Virus record (IMG/VR): IMGVR_UViG_3300033571_005405
Span: 1-41,698 of that record
Source of the DNA: a virus
Strand: one strand, 5' to 3'
Length of the DNA: 41,698 nt
Shown one piece after another: positions 31,832 to 36,913 of this stretch. A program made the position numbers and the translations under genes. Each line of letters starts with the position of its first letter. The stretch's first letter is position 1. The notes under the pieces were generated by a model, which made no database searches, was not told where the DNA came from, and was given only the letters and a program-made list of their open reading frames with translations.

Positions 31832-33316
31832 ATGAAAACAGTACTAATAGGCTCAGATTTTATGTATGATAAAGATGGTGTGTTAAAACCCATTGAAATT
31901 AATACAGCAGTTGGATTCACAAAAACTTATCTTGAAGATTTTAACGATATATTCGATACCACTTATTTGGAAGAGTTCATCACTCAAAATGGATTTACAA
32001 AAATTGATTATATTGGTGGTGGCTCATCAGAAATAACCGATATATTATCTAATTTATCGGTTGATTTGGGTATTGAGTATGAATATCACCAAGTAGCGGG
32101 GAATTCATTAACTGTGCCTTACATTGAAGATACTGAAACAAATTTAATCATTAGAAGTGCATATGATACCACTGCGTTAGTTGATGAAACGTATTGTAAA
32201 GATAAAATTGGATTCCTAAATCTAATCCAATCCGAATCATTCGGTGGACAATTCGCATATTTAAATAAAGAAGACCAGTTGGTAAGTAACATTACTACAA
32301 TACCAGATAATGGTGTACATCCAAACTTTATATTAAAGGCAAGATACCCTGCGTATGATAAAGATTTATTTCCAAAATTATATAGAGTAACTACTCAATC
32401 AGAATTAGATGTGATATTACAAAATGTTACTGATGAATATTTCATAATGGAATATTATTACAATCCATTACATAATGTAAATGGTAAAGTAACTAAAAAA
32501 AGAAGTTTAAATATTCTATACCCGCCTACGTTAGAATCAATTCCATTAGGTAAATATACAGATACAACAAAACAAAAAATAGTAGATAATCCATTATTTG
32601 ATGAAACTACTTTTGAGTTGGTAAGTTATTTGAGAGATGGATATATTACCACAGACAGTAACGTTATAACTAAACCGAAATTACTGGATACTGATTTAGT
32701 TCAAATGGGTGATGACACGTTTAAAACTGCGTTAGAGTTGCAAGTTGGTGATGTCGTAAAAACAATAGATATTCCGAATGCCACTAATGTGGATAGTTTA
32801 AATGAAAGCGTAAATTACAAAATTGATTTAGATACTTTTATTTCTGGTTCAACCTATTCTACTAACATGGTAACTCATAAATCTCGTATAGATGTTACTA
32901 CTAATATTGTTGAAATTGTATTTACCGATGACAGTACATGGGAAGACACGGAATATTCTTACTATTTAGTTGAAAGAGATAATGAAGTTAGATTTATTAA
33001 ATTGGATGATTTAATTGTAGGTGATATTGTTATATTAATAGATACCACTAATATAACATCGGTCGGTGTACACTCAAAAACTGTACAATCAACTTCAATT
33101 GTAACAAAGGCTTTTTCCGGATGGGAAATAACCGTAGAAAGAAGACATTTATTTTTAACAGTTACTAATAGTAGTACTCAAAATTTATCATTTGCCGCTA
33201 TTGAACATAATGGTCGAGCATGTTTTTTTCAAACGTCTTGCGGTCAAAACCAACCTACTTGTCCTAAAGGTCAAGCCTGTTTTTTTGCCTCCCAATGCCA
33301 ATACTGCTCAGTTTAA
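31832..33316 (+). CDS. ATP-grasp-like protein with Hint-like domain and Cys-rich tail
   Basis: Residues 1-~270 look ATP-grasp-like: VLIGSDFMYDKDG followed by PIEINTAVG, RSAYDTTALVDETYCKDK, FILKARYPAYD (possible ATP Lys) and EYFIMEYYYNPL. Residues ~284-460 resemble a Hint/intein fold: LLDTDLVQMGDDTFKTALELQVGDVV, a second LDDLIVGDIVILID, WEITVERRHLFLTV, and AAIEHNG (His459-Asn460), like an intein C-terminus. The N-terminal catalytic Cys is absent. After His-Asn come 34 residues with six Cys (464, 470, 477, 483, 489, 492), including a repeated ACFFxxxC; only one other Cys occurs in the protein. This could be a peptide-processing protein or a virion protein with a metal- or disulfide-rich tail. 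Confidence 0.6.
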   Translation: MKTVLIGSDFMYDKDGVLKPIEINTAVGFTKTYLEDFNDIFDTTYLEEFITQNGFTKIDYIGGGSSEITDILSNLSVDLGIEYEYHQVAGNSLTVPYIEDTETNLIIRSAYDTTALVDETYCKDKIGFLNLIQSESFGGQFAYLNKEDQLVSNITTIPDNGVHPNFILKARYPAYDKDLFPKLYRVTTQSELDVILQNVTDEYFIMEYYYNPLHNVNGKVTKKRSLNILYPPTLESIPLGKYTDTTKQKIVDNPLFDETTFELVSYLRDGYITTDSNVITKPKLLDTDLVQMGDDTFKTALELQVGDVVKTIDIPNATNVDSLNESVNYKIDLDTFISGSTYSTNMVTHKSRIDVTTNIVEIVFTDDSTWEDTEYSYYLVERDNEVRFIKLDDLIVGDIVILIDTTNITSVGVHSKTVQSTSIVTKAFSGWEITVERRHLFLTVTNSSTQNLSFAAIEHNGRACFFQTSCGQNQPTCPKGQACFFASQCQYCSV

Positions 33317-33333
33317 ATATTAAAAAAAATACT

Positions 33334-33408
33334 ATGAACGAAGAAACTCAACAAATGAATGATGTAATGACAACAATAGGTTCGTTAATTATATCCGCAA
33401 ACAGTTAA
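33334..33408 (+). CDS. Possible 24-aa peptide gene
   Basis: A short frame MNEETQQMNDVMTTIGSLIISANS begins 17 bases after the Cys-tail gene and ends 11 bases before the zinc-ribbon gene, on the same strand. It is rich in Glu, Gln, Ser and Thr and has no Cys. Upstream is an A-rich run (AAAAAAAATACT) like those before other starts here. It could be a small substrate or precursor peptide, or a chance frame. Confidence 0.35.
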   Translation: MNEETQQMNDVMTTIGSLIISANS

Positions 33409-33419
33409 ATTAAATTACA

Positions 33420-33695
33420 ATGGATATTATAGAAATAATCAACGCATGGAAAATTGCTAACAATCCAACGCCTAAGCAGGAAGAATTAGCAAAGTTAAGG
33501 GCTTCAATATGTGAAGTATGTCCATCAAAAAAAATTATAACTAAAAAATTAAAACTTGCAACCATATGTGGTGAATGTGGGTGTCCTATATCTAAAAAAA
33601 TATTTACCCCTAAATTTAATCCGTGTCCTTTAAAAAAATGGGGGGAAATTGATATTCAATATATACCCGAAAAAAATATAACAAGATTAATATAA
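33420..33695 (+). CDS. Small zinc-ribbon phage protein, 91 aa
   Basis: A helix (IIEIINAWKIANNPTPKQEELAKLRASIC) is followed by metal-binding Cys pairs: ICEVC, then ICGECGC and finally NPCPLKKW. The pattern C-x2-C, C-x2-C-x-C, CP is a zinc ribbon seen in small T4-like and marine phage proteins of unknown role. It starts 11 bases after the 24-aa frame and ends one base before the 2OG oxygenase, so it is part of the same operon. Confidence 0.65.
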   Translation: MDIIEIINAWKIANNPTPKQEELAKLRASICEVCPSKKIITKKLKLATICGECGCPISKKIFTPKFNPCPLKKWGEIDIQYIPEKNITRLI

Positions 33696-33696
33696 T

Positions 33697-34251
33697 ATGT
33701 TATTTATAAAAACAATTGAAGAATTTTTATCTAAAGAAGAATGTGATAATATTTTAAATAAATTTTTAAATGTCGATTTAAAGGTCGCGGAAGTAAGTGA
33801 TACAAAATCACTTACTTCACTATTAAAAATACGAGATTCTAAAGTAGTATTTACACAATTACCACATTACAAAAAAAAATTAGAAACTGTACTAAGAAAT
33901 GAAATAAAAATAAAAGGATTTGAATTGGATGAAATTGAAAATTTTCAATTTACAAAATATGAATTAAATGGTCATTATGATTGGCATACCGATTCAATGG
34001 ATTTTGATTATTATGCAAAAAGATTTTGTTCGGTAGTTATTCAATTAAATAATGAATATGATGGTGGCGAATTATTATATAAAGACCACAACGATGATGT
34101 AGTTGAATTTAAAAAAGGAGTTGGTAACTTATTTGTGTTTAATTCAAGTACATTACATAAAGTTAATCCAATAATAGGTGGTGAACGGTATTCTTTAGTA
34201 TCGTGGATATCATTAAAAGAAATTTCTAATTTTAAAAAAACATTAATATAA
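33697..34251 (+). CDS. 2OG-Fe(II) oxygenase (prolyl-hydroxylase type)
   Basis: This 184-residue protein has a complete iron and 2-oxoglutarate site: YDWHTDS (His97, Asp99), STLHKV (His154) and GERYSLVSW (Arg164). YDGGELLY and GNLFVFNSS are the usual intervening strands of the P4H/PiuC group. It would hydroxylate a peptide, sugar or lipid substrate using oxygen and 2-oxoglutarate. It shares its layout with a paralogue at 35970, although the two are strongly diverged. Confidence 0.88.
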   Translation: MLFIKTIEEFLSKEECDNILNKFLNVDLKVAEVSDTKSLTSLLKIRDSKVVFTQLPHYKKKLETVLRNEIKIKGFELDEIENFQFTKYELNGHYDWHTDSMDFDYYAKRFCSVVIQLNNEYDGGELLYKDHNDDVVEFKKGVGNLFVFNSSTLHKVNPIIGGERYSLVSWISLKEISNFKKTLI

Positions 34252-34252
34252 T

Positions 34253-34933
34253 ATGTCACTACTAATTAATGATGATTTAATATGGATTTCAGTTCCTAAG
34301 TGCGCATCACTCTCAATTGAGCGCGCCCTGGTAAGTTCAGATTTAGATATCAAATTCTACTCTGAATATAAATATAGCTTTAATAAACTCGGTAAACATG
34401 CCCATATAAAAAAATCCCACTTATTTAACGAAGTTGGAATTAGACCGACAGTGTGTATAACAAGAAATTGGATAGATAGGTGGTTAAGTGGTTTAGAGTT
34501 TATTTGGCAAGGGTTAATATCGGCTAATTATTCACCTATAATTCAATGGGAAGAAATTGATAATAATTTCATATATAACACATTTGATAGTAATTTTGGT
34601 AACAATATATATTATAGTAATGATTGGAATGATATCCTTAGTACTCTAGTTAAAAATTTAGATGAAACAAAATCAGATACACCAGGACTATTATGCGTAC
34701 TTCAATCACAAAACCATTGGAAAGAAAATCAACCATGTACATACGAATTTAATATAAAAGAGATTTATAAATTTGAAGAATTTATACAAAAAAGGTATGG
34801 GGTTTCATTTAAAATACCACATTTAAATACAACACCAAAAATAAAAAATAAAATAGAAATAAATGATGAATTAAAAAATCATATATGGAATGTATTTGAA
34901 AAACCATTTGAAAAACGAAATTCATTAATATAA
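34253..34933 (+). CDS. Sulfotransferase family protein
   Basis: The 226-residue protein has WISVPKCASLSIERAL (residues 11-26), matching the PAPS 5'-phosphosulfate loop (P-K-x-x-S). RPTVCITRNWIDRWLSGLEF (Arg71 and Ser79) matches the 3'-phosphate motif R-x7-S. A helical C-terminus with EIYKFEEFIQKRYGVSF follows, as in carbohydrate sulfotransferases. It would transfer sulfate from PAPS to a glycan hydroxyl; there is no membrane anchor, unlike Golgi enzymes. The gene starts one base after the oxygenase and shares one base with the radical SAM gene. Confidence 0.75.
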   Translation: MSLLINDDLIWISVPKCASLSIERALVSSDLDIKFYSEYKYSFNKLGKHAHIKKSHLFNEVGIRPTVCITRNWIDRWLSGLEFIWQGLISANYSPIIQWEEIDNNFIYNTFDSNFGNNIYYSNDWNDILSTLVKNLDETKSDTPGLLCVLQSQNHWKENQPCTYEFNIKEIYKFEEFIQKRYGVSFKIPHLNTTPKIKNKIEINDELKNHIWNVFEKPFEKRNSLI

Positions 34934-35973
34934 TGGTTGATTTAAAAAATTATACATGTAGTGTTCCATTTAATTCATTAGAAATACATAATAATGTTTG
35001 TTTTGTTTGTTGTCCATCATGGCTGCCAAATAAAATAGAACTTAGTGAGATACCCCTAAAAGATGTTTACAATAGTGAACCAATAGTTGACATAAGAAAT
35101 TCAATATTGGATGGTTCGTTTAAATATTGTAATAAGGAACTTTGTCCGTATTTAAGTAAATTACTAAACTATGGCGTGACATCAGGTCCTGTTAGCCTAA
35201 AATCAAATTCAAATATTAAAAGTCCAATCATAAAAAACAATACTCCTACTTACTTGGTTATGAATTTTGATAGAACTTGTAATTACAAATGTCCATCGTG
35301 CAGGGTAGATTTAATAGTAGAAAATAGTAAAGGAATCAAACGGGTTGAAAAAACAATAGAGGATATTGATAATTATTTTTCACAAAATGTTAAAACTCTT
35401 TATATTACCGGTTCAGGCGACCCATTTGTTTCGGTTGGGTTTAGGAATTATTTAAAAAATTTTAATCCTAAAAAATATCCAAATCTAAAATCAATACACT
35501 TACATACCAACGCCTCAATGTGGAATAAAGAAATGTGGGATTCAATGCCAAATGTACATAAATATGTACATAGTTGTGAAATTAGTATTGATGCAGGTAC
35601 ACGGGATACATATGAAAATAAAACAAGATTAGGTGGAAATTGGGATAACCTATTAAGCAATTTAAAATTTATAAGTACTCTACCAATATCTGTAAAGGCT
35701 TCATTTGTTGTGCAAGATACCAACTATATGGAAATGGAATTATTTTATAACTTAATGTATTCTATTTTTGGTAAAAAAGTAAATGTTTTTTTTGGTAAAA
35801 TAACAAATTGGGGAACATTTTCTGAAGGTGAATTTAAATTAAAACAAATATGGGATAGTGAACATCCTGAACATCATTTATTTAAAAAAGAGTTTAATAA
35901 AATATGGAAAAACACAAATCTATTTCATAATCTATATGAGTTCATCGATAATACAAATAAAACTTTAATATGA
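34933..35973 (+). CDS. Radical SAM enzyme with N-terminal Cys-rich domain
   Basis: This 346-residue protein has the cluster motif CNYKCPSC (Cys116, Cys120, Cys123), ITGSGDPF as the SAM-contact site (GGEP variant) and ISIDAGTRDTYENKTR in the barrel. The first ~75 residues hold Cys9, 23, 26, 27, 66 and 71 in CFVCCPSW...SFKYCNKELCPYL, likely binding auxiliary Fe-S clusters in a SPASM-like way but at the N-terminus. It differs from the radical SAM enzyme at 6667 in the auxiliary region. The reaction is unknown; peptide or sugar substrates are both plausible. It overlaps the next gene by 4 bases. Confidence 0.82.
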   Translation: MVDLKNYTCSVPFNSLEIHNNVCFVCCPSWLPNKIELSEIPLKDVYNSEPIVDIRNSILDGSFKYCNKELCPYLSKLLNYGVTSGPVSLKSNSNIKSPIIKNNTPTYLVMNFDRTCNYKCPSCRVDLIVENSKGIKRVEKTIEDIDNYFSQNVKTLYITGSGDPFVSVGFRNYLKNFNPKKYPNLKSIHLHTNASMWNKEMWDSMPNVHKYVHSCEISIDAGTRDTYENKTRLGGNWDNLLSNLKFISTLPISVKASFVVQDTNYMEMELFYNLMYSIFGKKVNVFFGKITNWGTFSEGEFKLKQIWDSEHPEHHLFKKEFNKIWKNTNLFHNLYEFIDNTNKTLI

Positions 35974-36470
35974 TTTTAAAAGAAAAAATCTTATTTAGTA
36001 AAGAGGAGTGTGAATCTATAATATCATATAACGACACGCATGTTACAAATTGGAGTATGGGTGACAGAAAATATAATTCACAACCAATTAATTATTCGTT
36101 AGAAAACAAATGGTTATTTGATAAACTTAGGAAATTTTTTGAAACCAATACTGAATTACAAATAATAAAATTAAAAAACCAAATTCATTTTCATAAATTT
36201 GTACAAGGAGACTGGTTTGGAAAACATAACGATGTTAGAGATAAAAGATTATACGCAGTTGGTGTATTATTAAATGATGAGTTTGAGGGTGGTGATTTTA
36301 AATTATACAATCCAAATGAAATAATATTAAACAAAGTAATTGGTAATACCTATATTTTTGATGTAAGAATAGCTCATGAGATATCTCCTATATTAAATGG
36401 TGAAAGATATTCATTATTATGGTTTTTACAACACGAACATATAAAAATAAAAACTAATAAATTAATATAA
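35970..36470 (+). CDS. 2OG-Fe(II) oxygenase, second copy
   Basis: The 166-residue protein has the iron ligands His86 and Asp88 (FGKHNDVRD) and His136 (RIAHEIS), and the 2OG-binding Arg146 (GERYSLLWF). FEGGDFKLY and GNTYIFD match the fold strands of the oxygenase at 33697. It starts in the stop of the radical SAM gene and shares one base with the following gene, so expression is coupled to both. Confidence 0.85.
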   Translation: MILKEKILFSKEECESIISYNDTHVTNWSMGDRKYNSQPINYSLENKWLFDKLRKFFETNTELQIIKLKNQIHFHKFVQGDWFGKHNDVRDKRLYAVGVLLNDEFEGGDFKLYNPNEIILNKVIGNTYIFDVRIAHEISPILNGERYSLLWFLQHEHIKIKTNKLI

Positions 36471-36913
36471 TGTTGGACTATATACTACATAAAAATAGTT
36501 TACCATTTACATCGGATGTAATACCATTATTGGTAATTAATTTAGATACGTTCGATTCTAATATCCCAATAATTAATCAATGTATTGAATTGTTTAATTC
36601 ACAATTAGAGTGGGATGGTATGTTTGATATATCTGAAGCAAGAAGACGTGTTGTCGGTGGTGATACCATGTATGTTGGAATCGATGATGAGGTATATTCA
36701 TATTTATGGGTAAATGATAATCCTAACTACTATTTTATATATAATGTATTTTCAAACAATATACGAAATAATCCGAATTACACCGGAAAAGATTTACTGT
36801 ATTCAGTAATCAAATCATACCTATTAGATAAAGATTGTAGGTGTGAAATAGATGAATGGAATATAAAATCAATTAATTTATTTAAAAAATTAGGATTTAT
36901 TCAAAATATATAA
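36470..36913 (+). CDS. GNAT-like acetyltransferase
   Basis: The C-terminal half of this 147-residue protein fits GNAT folds: FIYNVFSNN, then YTGKDLLYSVIKSYLLDKDC (acetyl-CoA loop and helix), then IDEWNIKSINLFKKLGFIQ. The last matches the 'N..s...y.k.GF' end of N-acetyltransferases. The N-terminal half is divergent. It ends the plus-strand operon, 92 bases before a convergent gene. Substrate not known; an amino-sugar or protein amine is possible. Confidence 0.6.
   Translation: MLDYILHKNSLPFTSDVIPLLVINLDTFDSNIPIINQCIELFNSQLEWDGMFDISEARRRVVGGDTMYVGIDDEVYSYLWVNDNPNYYFIYNVFSNNIRNNPNYTGKDLLYSVIKSYLLDKDCRCEIDEWNIKSINLFKKLGFIQNI

Follow-up and report, generated by a model that had tools for sequence, protein, structure and literature searches.

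A phage gene that fuses ATP-grasp-like and Hint-like domains to a replaceable cysteine-rich tail: a candidate viral route to small disulfide peptides

A stretch of viral DNA of 41,698 nucleotides (IMG/VR virus record IMGVR_UViG_3300033571_005405, positions 1 to 41,698), referred to here in its full length as the window, encodes a 494-residue protein that joins an ATP-grasp-like domain, a Hint-like domain and a short tail rich in cysteine. Together with an adjoining microprotein gene and a set of linked enzyme genes, this fused gene looks like part of an undescribed viral way to make a small disulfide peptide. We propose that the gene would provide both the precursor and the processing enzyme for a disulfide-rich peptide. 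The Hint-like domain, having lost its N-terminal thioester residues, would retain the C-terminal half-reaction only, in which Asn460, aided by His459, would cyclise so that the bond to residue 461 is cut and a mini-protein of 25-62 residues with 3, 4 or 5 disulfide pairs is released. We give an even chance to the model as a whole, namely Asn-dependent release of a disulfide mini-protein combined with a ligase and with tailoring enzymes. It draws on computed folds, on the catalytic residues that have been lost and kept, on cysteine parity, on cassette swapping, on the obligate microprotein and on a C-terminal tag common to the linked enzymes. The features of the fused gene and of the gene that follows it are listed below with the evidence for each.

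31832-33316, plus strand: fused ATP-grasp/Hint/Cys-tail gene, 494 aa (ORF list)
31832-32671, plus strand: N-terminal ATP-grasp-like domain, residues 1-280 (AlphaFold, Foldseek against the PDB, invariant columns)
31853-31906, plus strand: metal-site-like motif SDFMYDKDGVLKPIEINT, residues 8-25 (match to human glutathione synthetase)
32672-33211, plus strand: Hint-like domain, residues ~281-460 (Foldseek against the PDB, HMM alignment, column counts)
33203-33211, plus strand: Glu458-His459-Asn460, end of the Hint-like domain, with the predicted cut after Asn460 (HN conservation)
33212-33313, plus strand: payload of 34 residues with 6 Cys, GRACFFQTSCGQNQPTCPKGQACFFASQCQYCSV, predicted to be a released disulfide mini-protein (parity, cassette replacement)
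33334-33408, plus strand: microprotein gene, 24 aa, MNEETQQMNDVMTTIGSLIISANS, C-terminal (N/H)-S/T (obligate neighbour)

The window protein contains seven cysteines (C122, C464, C470, C477, C483, C489 and C492), and translation of 31832-33316 bears out the observation of an earlier note that six of them lie within the last 31 residues. The computed mass of the 34 residues that follow His459-Asn460 is 3.69-3.70 kDa, which agrees with the ~3.7 kDa given in that note for a cysteine-rich peptide. A repeat-like ACFFxxxC pattern, also pointed out there, is present in the window (ACFFQTSC...ACFFASQC) but is not conserved among homologues.

Relatives of the window protein were seen in phage contigs only, within the collections searched here. 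A first scan of viral contigs recovered 44 relatives at 42-74% identity and an alignment-based scan recovered 78 loci; subfamily A, as used here, comprises 57 distinct proteins, with partial ones counted in. Three further subfamilies (B, C and D, 24-31% identity) were reached through relatives of the linked radical SAM enzyme, and a scan with one B member gave 80 loci; the B set read from these consists of 59 distinct proteins, each with its C-terminus complete. The window protein has no match at threshold in Pfam, NCBIfam or PHROGs and no relative among the cultured phages of the searched collection, and two pattern scans across 84,980 prokaryote species, each represented by one genome, likewise found none. 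A subfamily D query matches cultured phages through its canonical Hint part only, and matches to CRP-3 and Serratia phages were judged to be chance.

Several contigs that carry the family gene are T4-like jumbo phages with gp23, and ribosomal protein bS21 is encoded in 5 of 10 long contigs (those of L037, L041, L043, L103 and L039). Freshwater Bacteroidota jumbo phages with bS21 have already been published (PMC9723584), and since our contigs fit these phages, the hosts of these large lake-water phages are probably freshwater Bacteroidota. The 211 kb contig IMGVR_UViG_3300042892_005961 carries two copies of the gene (L075, L106), which differ in their tails and are each accompanied by a separate microprotein gene. 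Additionally, ORFs of 98-100 aa that match positions 135-195 of the gp23 major capsid family (L135, L136; contigs of L027, L042 and L037) stand away from the capsid gene where the latter was found. Some B and C clusters are followed by tail-fibre-like genes encoding 1575-2033 aa (L350:11450-17548, L361:10077-15668, L301:12661-17385 and L331:11470-16902), and at these four loci the cluster therefore borders a host-recognition region.

Assignment of both large domains rests mainly on structure prediction. The AlphaFold model of residues 1-280 has a pLDDT of 91.7, and Foldseek against the PDB returned glutathione synthetases as its top four matches (E 3e-6 to 1.5e-5), led by the yeast (E 3e-6, prob 1.00) and soybean (E 8e-6) enzymes and then GSS22, with ArgX in fifth place (E 0.039, prob 0.63). 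An ATP-grasp call that had been made by eye is thus backed by structural comparison. The TM-scores to the PDB matches are modest (about 0.4), a sequence profile of the domain finds no PDB chain at E<=10, Pfam gives no meaningful match for the domain of the window, and a viral structure library gave nothing below E 0.1. Residues D9, E22, N24, R108, K169 and R224 are invariant in subfamily A and are kept in the 24-31% identical relatives of B, C and D. The N-terminal motif SDFMYDKDGxLKPIEINT has the pattern and order of RSDYM...LKQIEINT in human glutathione synthetase. The ATP-grasp of eukaryotic glutathione synthetase is circularly permuted, and a permutation of the same kind would explain why the metal motif lies at the N-terminus. 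On the structural model, residues 1-280 are a glutathione-synthetase-like ATP-grasp of eukaryotic-type order with the metal-site Glu and Asn, and ligase activity is predicted for them.

The 24-aa mini-gene at 33334-33408 proposed in the earlier note proved real, and a microprotein gene adjoins the fused gene throughout subfamilies A and B. An ORF of 24-30 aa occupies this position in 57/57 subfamily A members; 52 of its products end by the NS rule, four in HS or HTS and one in NT, the last at L117, where the gene lies directly upstream of the fused gene. Codon comparison between subfamily A pairs counted 2216 synonymous against 1025 non-synonymous single-change codons. The counterparts in subfamilies B, C and D are 36-50 aa long and lie 4-64 nt downstream in the loci read; a microprotein gene falls within 200 nt in 59/59 subfamily B loci, and every C and D member read has one. 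When 2.9 million viral contigs were scanned with a degenerate DNA pattern, 60 A-type microprotein matches came up, 59 of them in contigs of the same family; the match at L227 lies inside another frame and was set aside as chance. The microprotein was also considered as a payload-specific immunity gene, a role rejected on the ground that it is conserved while the payload is replaced. Because it is kept in subfamily D, which has no Cys payload, the microprotein appears to belong with the ATP-grasp part.

The ATP-grasp domain would form an ATP-driven amide bond. Its likeliest carboxylate substrate would be the C-terminus of the neighbouring 24-50 aa microprotein, and the likeliest amine partner would be the N-terminus of the freed payload, or else a small amine. 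Use of the microprotein C-terminus is a tentative proposal, which we consider possible and somewhat short of probable. It is weakened as a single common substrate by the variety of that C-terminus between subfamilies (NS, HS, HTS, KHL, KHLGE). The domain might instead act on a small molecule, as glutathione synthetases do on the small gamma-Glu-Cys, or on a tail-fibre protein, with the microprotein as chaperone or regulator. The variation of the microprotein between subfamilies, which extends to its whole sequence, would suit such a substrate, and Hint-mediated release would be compatible with it. Speaking against it are the obligate pairing of the microprotein with the ATP-grasp gene in four subfamilies, even where the Cys payload is missing, and the near-fixed C-terminal residues of the microprotein within subfamily A; we regard it as rather unlikely.

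The second domain matches the BIL2 domain of T. thermophila (6y75, E 1.9e-7, prob 1.00), a large number of inteins (also prob 1.00) and hedgehog when its model is compared with the PDB by Foldseek, and this upholds a Hint call that had likewise been made by eye. Some family members reach PT-HINT (5.9e-5, one member) and Hint (0.0027) in Pfam, and a scan with the Hint part alone for other architectures returned the same family only. A single continuous virion fold, the reading that would have competed with two domains, is ruled out by the Foldseek matches of both.

At the place of intein Cys1 stand P282 and K283, which are invariant in 55/55 proteins, and there is no N-terminal nucleophile. In block B, TxxS376 takes the place of TxxH; the residue that aligns with the His of intein 5o9j is S in 53/55 proteins and V in the other 2. 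The earlier claim that the N-terminal catalytic Cys is missing while the Asn is kept is thus confirmed, with the block-B His lost as well. The C-terminal His459-Asn460 pair is found in 73/73 proteins of subfamilies A, B and C that were checked and in 59/59 of the wider subfamily B set, and conservation ends sharply at Asn460. Homologues thus keep both the HN and the Cys tail, whose absence from them had been named in the earlier note as grounds for abandoning its reading, along with the continuous fold. The residue after Asn460 may be G, V, A, S, Y, P or others, with no required Cys, Ser or Thr. Because Cys1 and TxxH are replaced and HN is invariant, the residue pattern is that expected for C-terminal cleavage only, and such cleavage is predicted. 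The block-F His (H439) is not invariant (H in 43/55), which counts against the cleavage model and could bear on the speed of cleavage.

Subfamily D provides a comparison within the family. In the proteins of 912-913 aa at L343 (2218-4953), L346 and L338, the ATP-grasp and a degenerate Hint are followed by three canonical Hint domains in tandem, which are spaced by two residues (AP, RF/RA, KF) and end in VHNK. L359:5063-6922 has one canonical Hint after the degenerate one, and over the subfamily as a whole the separations are 2-6 residues and the ends VHNK or VHNKV. The canonical copies possess Cys1, a TxDH-like block B and HN, and those of L343 are over threshold in Pfam. The degenerate Hint ends in SAN in L346 and in SHN in the others. 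These copies support the view that the degenerate domain is genuinely related to Hint and, with no Cys payload present, indicate that the payload slot is open to other contents.

The payload itself has an even number of cysteines in all 72 distinct tails (34 with 6, 36 with 8 and 2 with 10), which form 37 clusters below 50% identity, while the cysteines before HN in the same proteins are of mixed parity (36 odd, 19 even). Even counts combined with almost no His (10 of 2742 tail residues) point to pairing of the payload cysteines as disulfides. In a reducing cytoplasm disulfides are not expected to form, and this counts against the model. Payload length across the family is 25-62 residues. Subfamily B tails contain exactly 6 Cys in 59/59 proteins, usually with a CxCx4Cx3Cx4CxxC core, and are conserved, unlike those of subfamily A, in which spacing is irregular and identity outside the shared Cys is 10%, compared with 55% in domain 1 and 47% in domain 2. 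No tail has a relative at a meaningful E-value among Pfam and PDB families, and a scan of the window for a second store of Cys-rich payloads gave none that was convincing.

Divergence of the subfamily A tails begins abruptly. Between the window and L057, DNA identity drops from 96% over the 45 nt that directly precede the tail to 36% within it and returns to 89% in the mini-gene region; the values against L003 are 87% before, 35% within and 88% after. Among eight close pairs compared, several show raised dS (and dN) in the tail. These breaks in identity and the raised dS argue that the payload is swapped as a cassette, with recombination, and not point mutation alone, diversifying the tails; plain point-mutational positive selection was rejected on the same two grounds. 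Cassette exchange would give each subfamily A phage a different peptide from the same carrier.

A Hint domain directly before a variable, recombining C-terminal payload is also the layout of polymorphic toxins (PMC3482391). The fused protein could accordingly be an effector of that kind, in which the Hint-like domain frees a variable toxic peptide and the ATP-grasp is only a carrier or delivery part; the exchange of payload cassettes and the one PT-HINT match would fit. Several observations make this an improbable reading: no secretion, repeat or trafficking region was found in the protein, the neighbouring small gene is conserved against a varying payload, unlike a cognate immunity gene, the subfamily B payload is conserved, and the catalytic ATP-grasp residues are kept. 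A little less credence still is due to the possibility that nothing is cut, so that the Hint-like domain is dead and structural and the protein keeps its Cys tail, which might, for instance, be a binding domain displayed on the virion or close to it. The loss of Cys1 and of the block-B His and the variability of H439 are in keeping with it, as are the long tail-fibre-like genes beside some clusters and the tail-fibre chaperone-like ORF (103-561) with which the window opens. If the domain were dead, however, one would not expect HN to persist throughout the A, B and C proteins, nor conservation to end exactly at HN; moreover, the residues kept are those of C-terminal cleavage. A metal-binding tail (Zn2Cys6- or metallothionein-like) that regulates the fused enzyme or takes part in its catalysis is very improbable: even Cys counts and the tight subfamily B pattern would suit metal clusters too, but His is nearly lacking, spacing in A is irregular, the 6, 8 or 10 Cys have no common metal-site pattern, sequence turnover is fast, and no zinc or metal family matches at a meaningful E-value.

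Release of a disulfide mini-protein thus remains our preferred reading, and the genes around the fused gene suggest what may happen to the product. Those downstream in the window are as follows.

33420-33695, plus strand: zinc-ribbon-like protein, 91 aa, CxxC, tag ...TRLI (PHROG 13558, unknown function)
33697-34251, plus strand: 2OG-Fe(II) oxygenase, tag ...KTLI (Pfam 8.2e-15)
34253-34933, plus strand: sulfotransferase-like protein, tag ...NSLI (PHROG 3347, 1.5e-5)
34933-35973, plus strand: radical SAM enzyme, tag ...KTLI (1.5e-7)
35970-36470, plus strand: second 2OG-Fe(II) oxygenase, tag ...NKLI (4.3e-6)
36470-36913, plus strand: GNAT-like protein, a weak call, without the C-terminal tag (Pfam 0.15, below cut-off)

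The enzyme set listed in the earlier note therefore stands for the zinc ribbon, two oxygenases, sulfotransferase and radical SAM enzyme, and is weak for the GNAT. Across the 57 subfamily A loci, zinc-ribbon proteins are found near the fused gene in 51, sulfotransferases in 49, 2OG oxygenases in 48 and radical SAM enzymes in 31. Upstream, an APS kinase (Pfam 4.9e-17) is present in about 20 loci and a nucleotidyltransferase in about 26; these two could possibly supply the sulfate donor for the sulfotransferases, as a phage-encoded sulfate-activation route. Genes often seen just upstream are an APS kinase, a cytidylyltransferase-like gene and one for a DUF2061 membrane protein (L064:5737-6171, L089:5459-5842, L078:7758-7970). 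The radical SAM enzyme (window 34933-35973 and its relatives) is often 75-90% identical between loci while the ATP-grasp-Hint gene falls to 24-31%, and this gap suggests frequent exchange of cluster genes.

Proteins of unrelated families (zinc ribbon, 2OG, sulfotransferase, radical SAM, SGNH-like) end in a common tetrapeptide, [K/N]-[T/S]-[L/I]-[I/L], in the window (33420-36470), in L299, L298 and L343 and in most loci. Among tagged proteins the first position is K in 54% and N in 26%, the second T in 40% and S in 18%, and the last two are L/I and I/L. The tag is present in 71-91% of the zinc-ribbon, main 2OG, sulfotransferase and radical SAM proteins and of one SGNH-like cluster, compared with 0% of most other recurring phage genes nearby. 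Endings in [LI][LI] are found in 60% of downstream and 16% of upstream genes (Fisher p 4e-44, with kinship ignored), and the strict tag clusters around the fused gene in two long contigs. A DNA-level start or recombination signal was considered and is disfavoured: the tag does not depart from background in its synonymous codon use, and it is followed by any of three stop codons. These same features favour selection on the tag as protein. The presence of one tag on unrelated enzymes suggests a recruitment code, by which the oxygenases, sulfotransferases and radical SAM enzyme would be gathered to tailor the product. The earlier description of the operon as a peptide-modification cluster is strengthened by the obligate mini-gene, the linked enzymes and the common tag; cleavage, disulfide pairing, release, ligation and modification are steps that we infer.

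In its most specific form the model describes a two-gene, cut-and-paste peptide maker, in which the Hint-like domain frees a swappable mini-protein and the ATP-grasp joins the C-terminus of the microprotein to the freed N-terminus. We consider this form unlikely. If true, it would amount to trans protein splicing put together anew from an ATP-driven ligase and an intein relative that only cleaves, and a common C-terminal tetrapeptide would recruit the tailoring enzymes. The mature peptide may be a receptor ligand, an effector against the host or a rival phage, or a decoration of the virion. If it functions as proposed, the system would supply natural disulfide mini-proteins whose release step is built in, as well as an intein relative limited to cleavage for use in biotechnology and a new phage route to diversify small effectors or surface ligands.

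The modules are known folds, and the system that they form matches no described kind that we found; our literature search found no account of a carrier in which a ligase is joined to a cleavage-only Hint and a disulfide payload that can be swapped, with an obligate microprotein alongside. RiPP clusters with ATP-grasp or radical SAM enzymes resemble it by genetic linkage, small ribosomal peptides lying beside oxygenase, radical SAM and sulfotransferase genes, and differ in that the phage precursor is fused to its own predicted self-cutting domain and ligase. LysW/ArgX-type ligases likewise pair an ATP-grasp with a very small protein, the C-terminus of which is their substrate, but the structural match is weak and the phage microprotein has neither the LysW zinc site nor its acidic tail. 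Eukaryotic-type glutathione synthetase is the best fold match and shares the SD(F/Y)M..LK.IEINT metal motif and, on inspection by eye, the subsequent order R..Y, K, Y(F/I)LME; the phage domain is shorter (280 aa), is fused to a Hint and has no glycine-rich loop visible at the corresponding place. In polymorphic toxins PT-HINT lies just before a variable, recombining C-terminal payload (PMC3482391), an arrangement shared by the phage family, the payload of which is instead a 25-62 aa Cys mini-protein behind an N-terminal half that is an enzyme. With no trafficking or repeat parts found and no covarying immunity gene, the phage system is not a polymorphic toxin by the tests of immunity and trafficking. 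Splicing inteins share the Hint fold and the C-terminal HN, but Cys1/Ser1, TxxH and the +1 Cys/Ser/Thr are absent from the phage family; the Hint-like domain, which is predicted to act as the C-terminal half of a BIL or PT-HINT domain does, lacks Cys1 and TxxH and is accordingly filed neither as an intein nor as a BIL domain. Also close is the A-type BIL domain, defined as a Hint fold that has HN and needs no nucleophile at +1 (PMC7765530), which provides the top structural match and has in common with the phage domain the Hint fold, the C-terminal His-Asn, a non-nucleophilic residue after the Asn and an occurrence in variable proteins. The phage version differs from it in the replacement of the N-terminal Cys and the block-B His, and in its constant company: the ATP-grasp domain to which it is fused, and the even-Cys payload and microprotein gene that come after it.
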